The position numbers and the translations under genes were made by a program. Positions 1 through 37,781 of a DNA stretch of 40,804 bases are shown here, piece by piece. The stretch covers positions 1-40,804 of IMG/VR virus record IMGVR_UViG_3300045303_000171; one strand, 5' to 3'. The DNA is from a virus. The notes beneath the pieces were generated by a model. The model was not told the DNA's origin, searched no databases, and saw only the letters and a program-made list of their open reading frames with translations. The stretch's first letter is position 1. Each line of letters begins with the position of its first letter.

Positions 1-1407
1 CAGCCCCTCCCCCTCGCCGTACGTGGTGCCGGTCCCGAACGCGCCCTGCCCCATCGTCCCGGTCGCCGCCTTCACCCGCCGGGTGCCGACCAGCACGCAG
101 CCCTCCGTATGCGACAGCACCACGTTCGCAGGCCACCGACCCGCCGCCGCCGACTCAAACTCCCGCGTCGCCTCCGCGCCCTCGCCGCCCGGCGCGAACC
201 CCTCCGTCCCCGCCTTGTGCCGTCCCCGCAGGTGCGTGTTGTCGGCCAGGTTCCCGCCGTTCACGACCGTGTGCTCGATCCGGCACCCATCGATGTTCAG
301 CGCCCCCGTGCCGTGCGCCAGCACGTTCCCGGCCACCGTCCCGATCAGCGGCTTACGGGCCACCACGATCGGCTCGTGCGCAGGCTTCAACGCCGTCCCC
401 CACCCGTCGGGCACCATCGGTTTGCCGCACCGTCCGCAAACCGGCCATGCTCCGCCAGCTTGTGCGAGCGGTTGTCCGGCCACATCTCCAGGTTCGCCGG
501 ATCGTTCCGGAGCGGGTCGTGGTCCCGATGGTGCACGACTTCCGTCCGCTCCAGCAGGCGGCCGACCATCGTCGCCATCACCAGCCGGTGCTCCATCACG
601 TAGCCGTCCCTCCGGGACATCGGCAGCGCCCAGTCCGGGCAGCGCACGTACCTCGCCCCCACGTGGTTCCCGTGCTGCCGCCGGTACGTCACGCCGCCCT
701 TCCACGCCGGATTCAGCGGCCCCTTCATCTTCGCCGCCGCTCGCACGTAGCTCTCCGGCGTCCGCGCCACGTGACCCTTCGCCCCGTGCGTCGCCCACTC
801 CCGCCCGCGCGCCAGCCCGTTGCACCGGCGCGAGCAGTGCGGCTCCTTCGCCCGCGTCGCATGACTCGGCGGGCGCGTGAAGGTCGTCCCGCACTCCGCG
901 CAGGTCAGCGTCACCGGCATGGCTGTACGGTACTGGACACTCACATCGGATGCCCGCGAGCGCCTTGGACACGTTGAGCGATTTCGGAAACCCCGAGCCG
1001 TATCCCCAGTGGATCATGTCGCGGATCTCAAACCCGGCGTCCTCGACCGCCGACGCGAGCCGGTGGAAGGTGCGCGTGCCGCCGAACGCGAGCAGGTGCC
1101 CGCCCGGCTTCAGCACCCGCAGAGCCTCCCGCGCCCACACCTCGTGCCACTCCTGCATCGGCCGCCCGGCCTGGTACGAGTTCACGCCGCCGCCCCGGCC
1201 GTACGGCACCTGCGCGTCCGGCCGGTCCGTGATCCGGCCGCGCTCGTTGTAGCCCGGCTGGCCCGACAACTTGTCCCACTCGCGGCCCATGAACTCCAGC
1301 CCGTACGGCGGGTCGGTCACGACCGCATCGACGGACGCATCCGGCATCCCGCGCATCACGTCCACGCAGTCGCCGTGCAGAATCTCCCAGGCCGCCACGA
1401 GCGGCAT
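1..1407 (-). CDS. DNA amino-methyltransferase (partial; runs off left edge; HNH gene nested inside)
   Basis: The frame is open from ATG at 1407 to base 1 (469 codons) with no stop. The N-terminal part (residues 1-150) has the S-adenosylmethionine-dependent amino-methyltransferase motif IV (TDPPYGLEF, near residue 31), then LRVLKPGGHLLAFGG and FPKSLNVSKAL. The last part (from about residue 342) has GWGTALKPAHEPIVVARKPL and ALNIDGCRI, typical of phage N6-adenine or N4-cytosine methyltransferases with motif order IV before I; motif I should lie left of the window. Between them about 185 residues look unlike a methyltransferase, and the same DNA encodes an HNH endonuclease in another frame. It may protect phage DNA from host restriction. 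It follows the 1433-2116 gene after a palindromic box and has no clear ribosome-binding site. Whether the product is active, or the middle is spliced out, cannot be seen. Confidence 0.85.
   Translation of the reverse strand, partial: MPLVAAWEILHGDCVDVMRGMPDASVDAVVTDPPYGLEFMGREWDKLSGQPGYNERGRITDRPDAQVPYGRGGGVNSYQAGRPMQEWHEVWAREALRVLKPGGHLLAFGGTRTFHRLASAVEDAGFEIRDMIHWGYGSGFPKSLNVSKALAGIRCECPVPYSHAGDADLRGVRDDLHAPAESCDAGEGAALLAPVQRAGARAGVGDARGEGSRGADAGELRASGGEDEGAAESGVEGRRDVPAAAREPRGGEVRALPGLGAADVPEGRLRDGAPAGDGDDGRPPAGADGSRAPSGPRPAPERSGEPGDVAGQPLAQAGGAWPVCGRCGKPMVPDGWGTALKPAHEPIVVARKPLIGTVAGNVLAHGTGALNIDGCRIEHTVVNGGNLADNTHLRGRHKAGTEGFAPGGEGAEATREFESAAAGRWPANVVLSHTEGCVLVGTRRVKAATGTMGQGAFGTGTTYGEGEGL
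387..920 (-). CDS. HNH homing endonuclease nested in the methyltransferase gene
   Basis: About 177 residues from ATG at 920 (a GTG at 944 is an alternative; neither has a clear ribosome-binding site). The N-terminus has a four-cysteine zinc-finger pattern (CAEC about residues 6-9, then CSRRC). A GPLNPAWKGGV segment common in HNH homing enzymes follows, and then the nuclease core with VVHHRDHDPLRNDPANLEMW and a later SHKLAEH, giving the expected H-H, N and H positions. The gene lies entirely within the methyltransferase reading frame but in a different frame, between its two conserved halves. Its C-terminus reads into the downstream methyltransferase block. HNH homing enzymes nick or cut a target allele and promote spread of their own gene; that role here is inferred. 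Confidence 0.85.
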   Translation of the reverse strand: MPVTLTCAECGTTFTRPPSHATRAKEPHCSRRCNGLARGREWATHGAKGHVARTPESYVRAAAKMKGPLNPAWKGGVTYRRQHGNHVGARYVRCPDWALPMSRRDGYVMEHRLVMATMVGRLLERTEVVHHRDHDPLRNDPANLEMWPDNRSHKLAEHGRFADGAANRWCPTGGGRR

Positions 1408-29637: not shown

Positions 29638-30570
29638 CTAGTGGCTCCCGACGGACGGCTGCGTCGGCGGCGACGTGGCCGCGGCCGACGGCGGCAGGTT
29701 CGGGATCAGGATCTGCGGGTGCCCCGCGAGCACCTTCTTCAGCCGCGCCGTCCGCACCGTCTGCCGCACCGTGCCGGTCGCGAGCGCTCTCAGGTTCTCG
29801 TTCCGCTCGATGCCTGCGGCCGTCAGCCAGGAGTTGCGGGCGAAGATCGGCTTGACCTTCGACGCATCTCCGTAGTAGAGCTTTGCCAGCCGCGCGACGG
29901 TGCACTGCGTAGCGGTCAGCGTCTTGATCGTCAGCTTCGCGCGGTAGCTGCCGGTCGTCTCCGCCCCCTTCACAGTGCCGCGCTTCGATGTCTTCATCTG
30001 CACCGTGTTGAACTCCGCGAACGTCGCCTGCACGTAGAGCGCGTCCGTCTCCCCGGCCCGCTCCTCCTGCCGGACGTTCCGCAGCGTCACCTCCACCGAC
30101 AACTCGTTACTGCCTGCCCCCACCGCCCCGAGAGAACCGCCGGGCGGCGCACGCAGCACCGACGAGTCCGCCATCGTCAGCACCATTGGCGACATCGCGT
30201 CCTGAATCGCCCGAAGCTGCGCCACCCGCACCTCCGGCGGCGCGAAGAACGGATGCGGCCCGCCGATCTTCTCAAGCTGAATCCCCGGCTCCACCCCGAG
30301 CGCGAGCAGGCTCGACACGTACACCTGCAACGCCGCCGGAACGTCCGCCATCAGGTAGTTCGTGAACACCGTGTCGAACACGTAGCTGGTCAACTGCTTG
30401 CCGACCGGCCGCGAGAACCTGACCCGCGACAGGGTGTCGTAGTCCGTGAACTCCACCGCCGTGTCGTAGTTGAAGTTCTCGATCGGCGCGGCCTGGAAGT
30501 AGAACGGCACCGCCAGGATCCCCGCCTTCGTGCGCGGCGAGCGCGACAGCACGCAGATCAGGCTGCTCAC
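29638..30570 (-). CDS. LysM-type tail protein (XkdP-like)
   Basis: Product of 310 residues; GTG at 30570 is chosen for its GTGA overlap with the tape-measure stop. The middle (DTAVEFTDYDTLSRVRFSRP, YVFDTVFTNYLMADVPAALQ) looks like hub-adjacent tail proteins. Residues about 225-292 resemble a LysM fold (LAKLYYGDASKVKPIFARNS ... HPQILIPNLP), matching XkdP. It may connect tape measure and hub, or bind cell wall. Confidence 0.72.
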   Translation of the reverse strand: MSSLICVLSRSPRTKAGILAVPFYFQAAPIENFNYDTAVEFTDYDTLSRVRFSRPVGKQLTSYVFDTVFTNYLMADVPAALQVYVSSLLALGVEPGIQLEKIGGPHPFFAPPEVRVAQLRAIQDAMSPMVLTMADSSVLRAPPGGSLGAVGAGSNELSVEVTLRNVRQEERAGETDALYVQATFAEFNTVQMKTSKRGTVKGAETTGSYRAKLTIKTLTATQCTVARLAKLYYGDASKVKPIFARNSWLTAAGIERNENLRALATGTVRQTVRTARLKKVLAGHPQILIPNLPPSAAATSPPTQPSVGSH

Positions 30571-33500
30571 GTCATCACCTCAGCGTCGTCCACCAGGCCC
30601 TGCGTCTCCAGCCGCCGCGCGAGCGACTGGAACGCCGCCTCAATCTCGCGCTGCACGTTGCCGCCGTGGTTCGTGATGTGCCCGATCTTCACCACGAACG
30701 TCGGGCCGCCACCGCCACCGCCGCCTCTCGACACGCTCACCGTCTCCCGGCCAGAGTCGCCGACCCCTATCAGCGTCGGCCGGTCGTACGTCGCCGTGCC
30801 GCCGCGACCGAACCAGCCACCGAACCCGACCCGGCCGCCCTTCGCGAAGCCCAGGCTGCCTGCCGTGTCCGCCGCCGCCGCCGCCTTGTTCAGCGCGCCC
30901 GCCTGCGCACCCGTCGCGCCAGCCGAGTACGCGCCGGGGAACCCGAACAGCCCCGAGTTCGTCGCCGTCAGCCGCAGCGCACCACCCGCACCACCGCCAC
31001 CCACCGCAGACCCCACGTCGCCGAGCGAGCCGGGGTTCGCGACGTGGTTCACCGAGAACCCCGACCGGATGCCGCCCGGGAACCAGCCCGCGCCGCCGGA
31101 CGGGTTCGCGGTGCTCGTCCCGAACGCGCGCCCGGCCAGCATCATGTAGACGTGCGACGGCGACGCGACGACGTTGATCCCGTGCGGGTCGTAGCCCTTC
31201 GCGCCCCACCGCATGAAGCTCGATGCCACCTGTGGTCCACCCAGTAGACCAGCCGCGCCGAGCACCGCCGACGTAGCCCCGGAGCAGTCGAAGCCGACGC
31301 CCATCGGCCCGCCGGTCGAGTGGCGAGTGCCGGACGACGGCACGCCGATCCGGCCGTGCCCGCCGCCCCAGGCGTACGGGTAGTGCATCGAGTCGATCGC
31401 GTTCGCCGCCCGCATCGCGCGCGCCAGCGGAGAGCCGCCCGACTGGCCGCCGGTCAGGTCGAGCGTCCCCGGGCCACGCGGAGCCGGGCGCGTCCGGCCG
31501 CCCTTCGCGAGGCCCGGCATCACGCCCGACTTGTCCTCGCCCGCCCAGTGAGGCTTGTCCTCCCGCGCCACCTCGCGCCCCAGCGACGTGCCCATCATCG
31601 ACAGCAGCCGGTTGATCCGCCCCTCCGTGTGCCGGTTCACGACCAACTCGCCCGGAGCCGCCATCTGCCCCGGCGCGATCGGCACCGTGTCCATCAGCCC
31701 GCTGCCGGGGATCCGCCCGCCGCGCGCCCGCTTGCTGCTCGGCTGCGCCGTCGATTGCACCTGCCCCTTCGCGTTCACCGGGTCGCCGCCCAGGAAGTAC
31801 GACCCCGTGGACTCACCCGTCGCCACGAACGCCTTCGCCTGCTGCGGGGTATACCCGAGGTCGCGCATGTGCTGGACGTACTTCGCCTGCGCCGTCGTCA
31901 TCGCCGCGTCCACAAGCTGCGCCACCTGCTCGCCCGGAGCGGCCAGCGCCTTCGCGAGGCCCTTCACGCCCTCGGCGGTGTTGTCAACGATCTTCTTGCC
32001 CTTCGCCTTGATATCGATGCCGAGCTTGTCGAACTTCCGGAGGATGTCCTTCTGGTCGCGATCGACCTGCCCCTTCAACTCCGGGTGTGCCTTCAACATC
32101 GCGTTGTCCGCGGCGATCCGAGCCAGCCCTGTCTTCCGCGCCTGAGCCGGGTCCGCGCTGCTCATCTGGCGAATGTCGAGCGCCGTCGCGGCCCGCAACT
32201 CGGCCCGCGTCCGCTTCGCGTTCTTGAGCTTCCCCGTCACAGGATCGACGCCCGCCGCGACCTTATCCGTCAGGCCCGCCGAGTACGTGGCCGTCGCCCG
32301 CCGCTTGTCCGTCCGCTCCTGCGAGCGCGTCGTCTTCAGGATCTCCTCGCGGTACGTCAACTCGGTCTGCAACCCGGAAATGAGCGCCTTCATCGCCTCG
32401 TTGTCCGCCGCTGCCTTCTCGCCCCGCGCCCTCGCCATGATCCCCTGAAGCGCCGCGATCTGCCCCGCCTGCCCCTGCGCGGTCGTCGGGTTCGCGGCCG
32501 TCGTCGCGGTGACCTGTTGCGCGTAGGACTGCTGCATCACCGGGGCCACCACCGTAGAGACGCCGTGCGCCCTCGCCGCTGTCGCCAGCGGCCGGTCAGC
32601 CGACGGTGCCACGCTCCGCTTCGCGACCTGCACCGGCTCGGCCGCCGTCGCGAGATTCGTCAGCACGTCCTGCCGCCGCTTCGCCTCCATCGCCCCGCCG
32701 CTGTATTGCGGGATCGCGCCGAACGTGGCCCCCGTCAGCGCCGCCGAGCCGGACTGCGCAGCCTGGTTCCAGAAGCCGCCCGTCCGCTCCGCGCTGTAGG
32801 CATCGAGCGCCGCCATCCCGGCCGCGATCGGCCACGCGAACTTCCCGATGCCGCGCGCCGCACCACCAGCGATCCGTCCCAGGCCGCCCACCTTCGCAGC
32901 AGCGCCCACAGCGCCCTCCGCGCGAGCCATCCCCGCCGGACCGGCCGCGAAGTCCGGCACGCCGCCGCGAGGCACCGGCGGACGCTTGCCGCGCCCGAAG
33001 ATGCGCCCGAAGATGCCCGGCCCGCCGCCGCCTGCGCCGCCCATCATCGTCGCCGCCGCCTCCGCCGCCGCAGCACGACCCGCCGCCGCGCCGACCAGGC
33101 CCCACGACGCCGCCAGGGCGCGCACAGCACCCGCCATCCGCATGATCCGCGACACCGCGAACGCCACCAGGATCGCCTGCCCCAGCCGCGGCACCGCATC
33201 GAGCAGCGAGTTGAACACGCCCAGGATCCGGTTCAGCAACCGCAGCGCCACCGTGAACGGCCCCACCATGTTCCCCGAGAGCAGTTCCATCGTCCGCGCG
33301 ATGTTCGTCAGGAGCACGCCGACCTCGGGGCCGAACGCCTTCTGGAAGTTCGTCAGGATCCGCTCCAGCGGCCCCACCAGGCCCCGCAGCGACCCCACCA
33401 GCGCCGCCGCGCCGCCCTGGTTCGCGCCGAGCCGCCCGAGCGCCTTCGTCACGTCCTGGACGAGGCCCCAAATCTGCACCAGCGTGTCGCGCGTCGAATC

Positions 33501-34694
33501 GAAGAACCGCCGCGTCGCCGTCTGCCCCCGAACCGACTCAGCGAAGTCCCGCCACGCCCTCGTCGCCCGCTCGATCCCGCCCCACAGCGTCTCCCCGAGC
33601 GGCGTCGCGGCGCGCAGCATGTCCCGCAGCGCGAAGTAGACGTTCTGCACGATCCGGCCGAACTGCTCCAGCGTCGTCCGCGCCCGCGCGAAGAACGCCT
33701 GCAGCTTCCCCGTCTCCCGGCCCGCCTTCGCCGCCGCGTCGATCCACCGCGTCCACCGGTACAGCGTCAGCGTCAGCCAGTCCGTGAACGGCCGCGCCGC
33801 CACCGCCACGTGCCGCAGCGCGTCCACCAGGTTCATCAGGCCCCGGCCCATCCGCGACACGATCCTGCCGCCCTGCTGGCCGATCGACAGGAAGTCCGCC
33901 AGGAACGAGCGCGAGGTGAACCGCGCCGACGCCTGCTGCGCCAGCTTCCCCAGCGTGTTGCCCATCATCGTGAGCAGCCGGTTGACCGTCGGAGCCGCCG
34001 TCTTCAGCCGCTCCAGCGACGCATCGAGGCCCTTGAACAGCCCGCCCTGCGCCGACTTCCGGAACTCGTCCACGAGCGGCTTCCACGACTTCAGCGTCTC
34101 CGTGAACCGCCGCGCCGCCGGAGTCAGCCGCGCCAACGCATCCGCGTTCCCGCCCATCGCCTTCGATATGTCCGAGAACGCCAGCTTCACCGTCGCCATC
34201 GCCAGGCCCAGCCCGGCGAACGTCGCCGGGAGCGCCCCGAGCAGCGCCCCTAACTGGCCGATCTTCGGGAGCAGCGATACCACCCCCGCGCCCAGCGCCG
34301 CGACCAGCGGGATCAACTGCGCGAAGCCGCCGATCATCAGCGGCAGCTTCATCAGCGCGAACACCTTCCCCAGCCCGCCGAACACGAGGATCATCTTCTT
34401 GCCGAACCGCTCCAGCGCCGTCCCGGACGAATCGACCTTCCGCTTGTGCGTGTCCAGCACCCGCGACTGCCGGTCTATCTCGCGCGACGCGGCAGTGGCC
34501 GACTTCGTGACCTTCGCCATGTTCGCGTCCAGCTTCGACAGGCCCTCGATGTGCTCCTTCGCGGTCACCTTGTCCAGCGACCGACCGAGCTTTTCCACAG
34601 CCCGATCGGCCGCCTTCGCGCGCCGCTCGATGTTCTCCAGCGTCCGCGACGCGCGGTCGATGATCCGGAAGGTGCCCTCGACAGAAACGGCCAC
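30567..34694 (-). CDS. tape measure protein with NlpC/P60-like domain
   Basis: Product of 1375 residues; GTG at 34694 follows the chaperone stop by 3 bases. The first 120 residues are coiled coil (RRAKAADRAVEKLGRSLDKV), then come membrane-like stretches (GGFAQLIPLVAALGAGVVSL, then AWPIAAGMAALDAY). Near residues 1110-1220 is an NlpC/P60-like peptidase: HYPYAWGGGHGRIG, the catalytic FDCSGATSAVLG and a later SPSHVYMMLAG supplying histidine. Tape measures set tail length, at about 0.15 nm per residue; the whole protein would suggest roughly 200 nm. The peptidase may open cell wall during injection. Confidence 0.9.
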   Translation of the reverse strand: MAVSVEGTFRIIDRASRTLENIERRAKAADRAVEKLGRSLDKVTAKEHIEGLSKLDANMAKVTKSATAASREIDRQSRVLDTHKRKVDSSGTALERFGKKMILVFGGLGKVFALMKLPLMIGGFAQLIPLVAALGAGVVSLLPKIGQLGALLGALPATFAGLGLAMATVKLAFSDISKAMGGNADALARLTPAARRFTETLKSWKPLVDEFRKSAQGGLFKGLDASLERLKTAAPTVNRLLTMMGNTLGKLAQQASARFTSRSFLADFLSIGQQGGRIVSRMGRGLMNLVDALRHVAVAARPFTDWLTLTLYRWTRWIDAAAKAGRETGKLQAFFARARTTLEQFGRIVQNVYFALRDMLRAATPLGETLWGGIERATRAWRDFAESVRGQTATRRFFDSTRDTLVQIWGLVQDVTKALGRLGANQGGAAALVGSLRGLVGPLERILTNFQKAFGPEVGVLLTNIARTMELLSGNMVGPFTVALRLLNRILGVFNSLLDAVPRLGQAILVAFAVSRIMRMAGAVRALAASWGLVGAAAGRAAAAEAAATMMGGAGGGGPGIFGRIFGRGKRPPVPRGGVPDFAAGPAGMARAEGAVGAAAKVGGLGRIAGGAARGIGKFAWPIAAGMAALDAYSAERTGGFWNQAAQSGSAALTGATFGAIPQYSGGAMEAKRRQDVLTNLATAAEPVQVAKRSVAPSADRPLATAARAHGVSTVVAPVMQQSYAQQVTATTAANPTTAQGQAGQIAALQGIMARARGEKAAADNEAMKALISGLQTELTYREEILKTTRSQERTDKRRATATYSAGLTDKVAAGVDPVTGKLKNAKRTRAELRAATALDIRQMSSADPAQARKTGLARIAADNAMLKAHPELKGQVDRDQKDILRKFDKLGIDIKAKGKKIVDNTAEGVKGLAKALAAPGEQVAQLVDAAMTTAQAKYVQHMRDLGYTPQQAKAFVATGESTGSYFLGGDPVNAKGQVQSTAQPSSKRARGGRIPGSGLMDTVPIAPGQMAAPGELVVNRHTEGRINRLLSMMGTSLGREVAREDKPHWAGEDKSGVMPGLAKGGRTRPAPRGPGTLDLTGGQSGGSPLARAMRAANAIDSMHYPYAWGGGHGRIGVPSSGTRHSTGGPMGVGFDCSGATSAVLGAAGLLGGPQVASSFMRWGAKGYDPHGINVVASPSHVYMMLAGRAFGTSTANPSGGAGWFPGGIRSGFSVNHVANPGSLGDVGSAVGGGGAGGALRLTATNSGLFGFPGAYSAGATGAQAGALNKAAAAADTAGSLGFAKGGRVGFGGWFGRGGTATYDRPTLIGVGDSGRETVSVSRGGGGGGGPTFVVKIGHITNHGGNVQREIEAAFQSLARRLETQGLVDDAEVMT

Positions 34695-36329: not shown

Positions 36330-37781
36330 CTAGGACACCTGGATCGTGAAGAACACCTGCTCCACGGATCGGCCGAACGCGAAGCCGACCATGATCGCGA
36401 TGAAGTTGTCAGAGTCGGTCGGGGCCGGGTCAGGATCGACCATCACCGTGAAGCCCGGCTGGATCACGCCCAGGTCTGCGCGCTTCTGCGCTCGCGAGCG
36501 CGTCTCGCCGACCACGAAGTCGCGCGTCTTGTCGTTCACCGCAGTGCGGCCGATGATGTTGGAGTCCGACCACTCGGCCATCTCCATCTCAAAGCCCTGC
36601 ATGGTGCGGATGTTCTTCGGATCGCGGAACACGAGGTACGGCTTGTCCGCGTTCGACTTCGACGTGTACGTGGTCAGCGCCTTCTCGATCCGCACTGGCG
36701 CGTCCGGGTTGCTGTCACGCGACAGCACCATCACGCCAGCGTCGAACGCCTGATTGATCTCGGCCTCCGACGCGCCGAACAGGATGGAGACGCCCGCCAC
36801 CCGCGCGAACGTCATCGACTGCGCCTCGCCCTTCGCCGCCAGGATGCCCGCGATCCGGGGCGCAAGCTGAGCGCTCGACAGCACGCCAAGCTGCGCGTCC
36901 TGCACCGACCCCATCCCGAGCGTGATGATGTTCTCCGACGCCGCCGCCGCAGCGCGCGTCACGGCCGTCGTGATCGTCTCGTTCGCGAGGCCGCCGATCA
37001 CCGTCATGAACCGCTTGCCGTTCCGGTTCAGGTTCTCGCTCCACGTCTTCAGCGACGTGACGATCGTCGCGTCCGTCAGGTTCTCAAACGCGAGCGCAGC
37101 GAACCGTGCGTGCTCCAGCGCAGACATCGCCGCCGTGTAGTCGGCCGCCAGCAGCGTCCCGCCATCCGCACCGCTCGCGAACGACTGGTTCGCCACGACG
37201 CCGAGCGCGACGGTCGTGACCGTCGCCGTGGCCGTCACCCAGCCGGACCCGGCGTTGATCTGATCGACCAGGTTCTGGATGCCCGCGTCCGGGTACGTGA
37301 ACCGCTCCGCCTCCGAACCATCCACGAGGATGATCAGGTCGGAGTTTGCCGGGTTCGATGCGTTGTCCTGCACCGTCACCGTGATGCGGTTGCCGTACGA
37401 TCCGTCGCCCTTCGCCGTCAGCGTCAGGGCCGGGGCCGGGGTCGTGTTGGACAGCACCTTGGTCGCCTTCGCGCCCGCCGCGCCGACCATCCGGAACGCA
37501 ACCACTGCACCCGCGCCGCCGCGCCCGTCCAGCCCCTCGCCCTGGAACGCCTGCTTCACGGCCGCGAACCCCGGCGTGTTCTCAGACGGCCCGAACACCG
37601 CCTTGAACTCCCCGAGCGACTCGACTAGCACCGCCGTCTCCGACGGCCCCCAGTCGTGCGTGAAGGCCACGGCGACCGTGGAGCCGATGCTGGCCGGGAC
37701 CGTCGTGACATCCACCGACTCCCAGTTGACGTACGTGCCCGGCCGGGTCGGGCGGGCGCTCTTACTGAAAACTCCGGGCAC
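36330..37781 (-). CDS. contractile tail sheath protein
   Basis: Product of 483 residues. GTG at 37781 is the start, with AGGAGGAG about 6 bases upstream. It opens with MPGVFSKSARPTRPGTYVNW, a typical sheath N-terminus (GTY after a Pro-rich lead), and includes TVAVAFTHDWGPSETAVLVE, LVDGSEAERFTYPD, FASGADGGTLLAADYTAAMS and the C-terminal KNIRTMQGFEMEMAEWSDSN region. It defines this as a myovirus. The sheath contracts to drive the tube through the envelope. Confidence 0.93.
   Translation of the reverse strand: MPGVFSKSARPTRPGTYVNWESVDVTTVPASIGSTVAVAFTHDWGPSETAVLVESLGEFKAVFGPSENTPGFAAVKQAFQGEGLDGRGGAGAVVAFRMVGAAGAKATKVLSNTTPAPALTLTAKGDGSYGNRITVTVQDNASNPANSDLIILVDGSEAERFTYPDAGIQNLVDQINAGSGWVTATATVTTVALGVVANQSFASGADGGTLLAADYTAAMSALEHARFAALAFENLTDATIVTSLKTWSENLNRNGKRFMTVIGGLANETITTAVTRAAAAASENIITLGMGSVQDAQLGVLSSAQLAPRIAGILAAKGEAQSMTFARVAGVSILFGASEAEINQAFDAGVMVLSRDSNPDAPVRIEKALTTYTSKSNADKPYLVFRDPKNIRTMQGFEMEMAEWSDSNIIGRTAVNDKTRDFVVGETRSRAQKRADLGVIQPGFTVMVDPDPAPTDSDNFIAIMVGFAFGRSVEQVFFTIQVS

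Follow-up and report, generated by a model that had tools for sequence, protein, structure and literature searches.

Near the left end of a viral contig, a gene for an HNH endonuclease lies inside a DNA methyltransferase (MTase) gene, in another reading frame, and no stop codon breaks the host frame across this insert. The question raised by this locus is how the host frame has stayed open: by chance in GC-rich DNA, by removal of the middle as an intron or intein, or by a constraint that keeps one stretch of DNA readable in two frames. The window (the whole stretch of DNA analysed, 40,804 bases) is the entire virus record, and its tail sheath (36333-37781, minus strand) and tape-measure (30570-34694, minus strand) genes identify the virus as a contractile-tailed phage. 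Very probably, the insert is a mobile HNH homing gene that occupies the +1 frame in the variable loop of the phage MTase, its codons and length being constrained such that the MTase frame remains free of stops.

Layout of the methyltransferase frame and the nested HNH gene

The frame of a beta-class N6/N4 DNA MTase spans positions 1-1407 on the minus strand, and its translation from the ATG at 1407 to the left contig edge comprises 469 codons with 0 stops, as the first-pass annotation had read it. The frame is matched by phrog_67 (DNA methyltransferase, E 2.7e-39) and by the Pfam family PF01555 (N6_N4_Mtase, E 3.6e-12). The N-terminal half includes catalytic motif IV (DPPY, 1303-1314, minus strand), which is nearly invariant in the alignment and is translated as ...VTDPPYGLEF... 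(motif IV, TDPPYGLEF); the last residues of this half are ...YGSGFPKSLNVSKA. After the HNH gene the same frame picks up as GWGTALKPAHEPIVVARKPL and carries ...DGWGTALKPAHEPIVV..., and the conserved MTase segment GWGTALKP (382-405, minus strand), which encloses the HNH stop codon, resumes in frame past the insertion. Translation thus bears out the earlier claim that the two conserved halves share one frame.

The position of the DPPY motif IV before motif I and a CcrM/RsrI-like fold are those of beta-class enzymes, motif I being off the window and scored on relatives. The absence of the MTase C-terminus, with the SAM motif I, is due solely to the end of the contig, the window being the whole record; a circular continuation at the opposite contig end was considered and rejected, as none is there. 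The MTase halves are largely intact in the relatives: in most members of class A, the window's class, in which the HNH gene lies in the MTase variable loop, the ORF is complete downstream and motif I (LDPFAGSG) is often recognised.

Between the two halves, and in the +1 frame relative to the MTase, lies the HNH endonuclease gene (387-920, minus strand) that the first-pass annotation had placed there. It is identified by a match to the HNH_3 profile (PF13392, E 1.6e-6) and by conserved His/Asn residues, and PHROGs agree with Pfam on both the MTase and the HNH. The start codon ATG 920-918, which overlaps the His codon of the MTase-frame “PYSH,” gives a product of 177 aa and is better conserved than the alternative GTG at 944 (185 aa); the gene ends with a TGA at 389-387. 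In the window copy no Shine-Dalgarno-like sequence is present upstream of ATG 920. Compared with uninterrupted MTases, the inserted segment (“VSKA” to “GWGTALKP,” 406-957, minus strand, plus or minus a few codons) stands in place of a hypervariable loop, the HNH site being the variable loop of the MTase between “GFPKS” and “GWGTALKP.”

Stop codons and selection across the nested loci

Viral contigs and one genome per bacterial species were searched with HNH and MTase queries, and loci were gathered by similarity to either protein, openness of the frame being no criterion. The arrangement recurs: both MTase halves lie in one frame in 104/105 HNH hits placed between MTase N- and C-terminal halves. 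A script flagged L074 and L096 as exceptions. In L096 the frame changes after the element. In L074 the frame is open across the hidden HNH, and the stops fall in a second, ordinary HNH insertion downstream (L074:3800-4500, near the ShiLan site described below); with about 13 MTase-frame stops in this insertion and none in the hidden HNH, the gene offers a natural contrast. Removal of copies more than 90% identical left 82 non-redundant loci, of which 79 relate the two frames as the window does and 3 resemble ShiLan; L045, L111, and L140, among the 82, have few codons each after trimming. These loci are viral and bacterial, with a GC content of 33-72%, and the bacterial genomes with nested copies include Cupriavidus, Antribacter, and MAGs of several phyla. 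A 126-kb viral contig (L019) carries several copies of the MTase N- and C-terminal halves in tandem and in shifting frames, and in Pectobacterium phage Koroua (L217:424-1149) an HNH ORF lies on the strand opposite a large CDS annotated as hypothetical, either as an antisense overlap or through misannotation.

As a null model, the HNH protein was kept, its own synonymous codons were shuffled, and stops in the MTase frame were counted. The window copy alone proves little, since only 1.34 stops are expected and 23% of the shuffles contain none [P(0 stops) = 0.23]; the chance of about 2% given earlier for such an open frame was too low for this copy. Across the 82 loci, however, 0 MTase-frame stops are observed over the HNH against 465 expected, with a joint shuffle probability of log10 about -218, which is not a true p-value because the loci are related. 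The plainest case for stop avoidance comes from low-GC copies, with 0 stops against 14.6 expected in L078 (33% GC) and 11.6 in L032 (41% GC); L062 likewise has 0 against 12.6. By contrast, stops are near expectation in the controls: these loci have 639 in their third frame where 589 are expected, and 19 non-nested HNH relatives have 210 in the equivalent frame where 239 are expected. The MTase frame is therefore actively kept open.

These counts bear directly on the reading that high GC and codon bias keep the host frame open incidentally, while the insertion does no more than break the MTase. The window copy, at 72% GC, is compatible with it, and for that single copy chance through high GC was not rejected; it was rejected for the family by the shuffle and the controls. 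Beside the absence of stops down to 33% GC, the MTase C-terminal halves are open and complete, many with a recognisable motif I, and the frame stays open even with two hidden HNHs: single MTase ORFs with an apparent second hidden HNH-like stretch (L060, L068, L087, L090, and L129) reach 800-1187 open codons. For the family this reading can hardly be credited and is already refuted. The same evidence, namely the missing stops, the normal counts in non-nested relatives and the third frame, and the complete C-terminal halves with motif I in many relatives, supports the first-pass suggestion that selection on the insertion preserved a readable host gene, whose product would be an MTase with a loop inside it. 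Relatives that share the middle segment but lack the HNH gene would have spoken against it, and none were seen: the loops of 68 uninterrupted MTases are short (3-147 aa) and unrelated.

Selection acts on the two frames unequally. In class A pairs of 50-60% identity, divergence at HNH codon positions follows the order 3>1>2 (0.54/0.38/0.35), and the HNH protein is therefore under purifying selection. Third positions of the HNH change less (0.54) than those of the MTase halves at equal identity (0.62-0.65). In overlap simulations that kept the HNH protein and forbade MTase-frame stops, the similarity of MTase-frame residues was nearly that of the real loci, 0.244 against 0.285 observed within class A and 0.233 against 0.246 observed between classes. 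Given so small an excess, strong selection on MTase-frame amino acids was rejected, and the host frame is mainly required to be free of stops. Within classes, identities of the HNH and of the MTase N-terminal half are uncorrelated (r -0.03, from pairwise identities, not trees). HNH and host histories are thus decoupled, as expected of mobile hidden HNHs, and this is consistent with a mobile gene and horizontal spread.

Anatomy of the loop and classes of insertion

In the MTase frame the window loop includes a CxC (Cys-Glu-Cys, 937-945, minus strand) and a CxxC (CGRC, 427-438, minus strand), the latter overprinted on the disordered tail of the HNH. A CxC just before the HNH and a CxxC near its end are found in 39/42 class A loops, and the pair is absent from all 68 uninterrupted loops and from the own loops of 34 class B loci (Fisher 1e-26, the relatedness of loci being ignored). 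Of the three class A loops without the pair, at least one (L101) may belong to class B and have been wrongly assigned. Both TGC and TGT are used for the cysteines, meaning that the protein and not a DNA word is conserved, and the CxC of the window, being upstream of ATG 920, is not accounted for by the HNH. Judged from its residue pattern, CxC...CxxC possibly binds zinc, as a clasp at the base of the loop. The second hidden HNH of L090 is likewise flanked by an MTase-frame CxC...CxxC.

For the complete class A MTase L031, AlphaFold2 models the core on both sides of the insertion with pLDDT >90 and most of the loop with <50, so that the MTase-frame loop is predicted to be disordered; confidence at the putative clasp is modest. 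Foldseek searches with the MTase model gave CcrM as the top match (6pbd, E 5.8e-12), and those with the HNH model matched solved HNH homing enzymes weakly (I-HmuI, 1u3e, E 1.2); a search by sequence for a solved relative of the HNH found none.

The overprinted loop might alternatively be a new target-recognition segment that alters MTase specificity, its MTase-frame sequence having an evolved function of its own. It occupies the site where, from the order of motifs, beta-class MTases are thought to carry variable recognition sequence, its cysteines are conserved, and class A similarity lies slightly above simulation (0.285 vs 0.244). However, that excess is small and nearly gone between classes, and the loop is predicted to be disordered, which makes such a function unlikely.

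Two further classes stand beside class A. In class B the same HNH family lies out of frame within an intein of the same MTase, inserted at YG^C...TGN^SGFPKS. These inteins carry blocks A, B, and G; Pfam missed them at its cut-off, and a PDB profile search found them, the intein profile matching the AceL NrdHF intein (6zgq, E 1.7e-6) and also a polymerase entry (9hth, E 4e-4). Such nesting was observed in L054, L056, L058, L061, L113, L127, and others, where the N-terminus of the HNH frame overlaps block B (TDQIVSRNHRC) and an SD-like sequence sometimes precedes its ATG. Class C has the ShiLan site and frame and is found in Cheoctovirus mycophages.

The first-pass annotation had also offered an intron for the middle segment. 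Group I introns commonly carry HNH ORFs, and the same HNH sits inside an intein in class B, both of which favour removal of the segment from the MTase by RNA or protein splicing. Yet Rfam gave 0 matches in the window (E<=1) and 0 in six nested loci (gathering threshold), the HNH ORF fills nearly all of the insert and leaves a ribozyme almost no room, and an intron has no need of an open host frame; an intron in the window was rejected and that part of the annotation is unsupported. An intein was rejected as well, since blocks A, B, and G are absent from the insert ends in the window and in class A, and Pfam finds only the MTase there. Self-splicing of either kind is very unlikely at this locus.

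How the HNH is expressed admits another reading, namely a fusion of the MTase N-terminal half to the HNH by +1 programmed frameshifting in place of separate synthesis. In its favour, every class A and class B copy has its HNH gene in the +1 frame of the MTase, and the window's HNH start lacks a ribosome-binding site. Against this, a conserved position (CCAtAnnCCATG) holds an ATG in several copies of class A, an SD-like sequence (AGGAG, GGAGG) precedes an ATG in several of class B, and class C uses the other frame. Frameshifting is therefore quite unlikely, and separate synthesis of the HNH the likelier course.

Proposed mechanism and comparison with known systems

As a mobile homing gene, the HNH would have an internal translation start of its own and would cut MTase alleles that lack the element, which could then spread by recombination in co-infections or prophages. 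A tolerant loop, a length that keeps the frame, and a host frame free of stops suggest that the MTase is read straight through as a single chain with a mostly disordered loop of about 185 residues and probably stays active, so that the element would cost its host little. In class A, the cysteines at the two loop ends may bind zinc and pin the loop base. Out-of-frame nesting would thus take the place of self-splicing as the means to a harmless insertion. The chances are about even for a broader proposition, that dual-coding homing endonucleases form a broad, largely unannotated class of phage mobile genes, which persist through a stop-free second host frame and not through splicing, occur in one MTase family at several kinds of site and frame (directly in the loop, inside an intein, at the ShiLan site; in some genes twice), and in class A add a host-frame zinc clasp, CxC...CxxC, at the loop base.

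A 2025 paper described hidden HNHs in phage methylases, both in ShiLan-type insertions and in Pacc40 (Arsenault, Gosselin, Gogarten; PMC11855218); it followed Gosselin et al. 2023 (PMC9957025), and an out-of-frame HNH-like ORF in a phage methylase has also been noted for Applejack gp54/gp55 (PMC12613952). The mycobacteriophage DNA methylases with a ShiLan insertion resemble the window: an out-of-frame HNH lies in the same MTase family, the host frame has no stop, signatures of an intron or intein are absent, the distribution is patchy, and the host-frame product is disordered (PMC11855218). However, the ShiLan insertion follows GWGTALKP..EPVCVA and its MTase is HNH+1, whereas the window insertion precedes GWGTALKP and its MTase is HNH+2, so the window departs from ShiLan proper in both site and frame. 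The ShiLan HNHs are also distant from that of the window (31-33% identity), and the window's class, unlike ShiLan, has CxC...CxxC at the loop ends, a GC range of 33-72%, and a spread over several bacterial phyla. Pacc40 gp60 shares the out-of-frame HNH-like ORF in a phage methylase and, by its authors' account, differs in being a divergent helicase-methylase with the insertion elsewhere (PMC11855218).

Inteins with an in-frame homing endonuclease are, as here, mobile insertions in the same MTase, but the window lacks intein blocks and the class B HNH is out of frame. With group I intron HNHs of the I-HmuI type the window shares the HNH fold and a putative homing role, but no intron RNA was found here by Rfam, and the structural match is weak (Foldseek 1u3e, E 1.2). 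In L040 (Mantra), an in-frame LAGLIDADG segment (YWLAGLIDGEGCF) occupies about positions 1100-1530 of the locus, between motif IV and the next block of an MTase gene that also holds a ShiLan-type hidden HNH; this segment is probably the one that PMC9957025 gives as a lone LAGLIDADG insertion. Among cultured phages no class A copy was recognised: tblastn with three HNHs in the phage collection returned class B or C copies and free-standing HNHs. The terms “selection” and “synonymous” do not occur in the 2025 ShiLan text (PMC11855218), and within the portion of the hidden-HNH literature covered, neither a selection test, nor a cysteine clasp, nor an out-of-frame HNH inside inteins was found.

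The comparative statistics describe a selfish gene held harmless by overprinting, with two frames of one stretch in use in place of RNA or protein splicing, and they offer a testable system for the maintenance of overlapping genes. They also explain why many phage methylases have long “hypothetical” loops, and they carry a warning for annotation, as HNH genes in such a setting are easily overlooked. With its alternative-frame HNH in a phage MTase, stop-free host frame, and freedom from intron or intein signatures, the window holds a hidden HNH of the kind described in PMC11855218, yet at another site, in another frame, with a wider spread, and now with a selection test.
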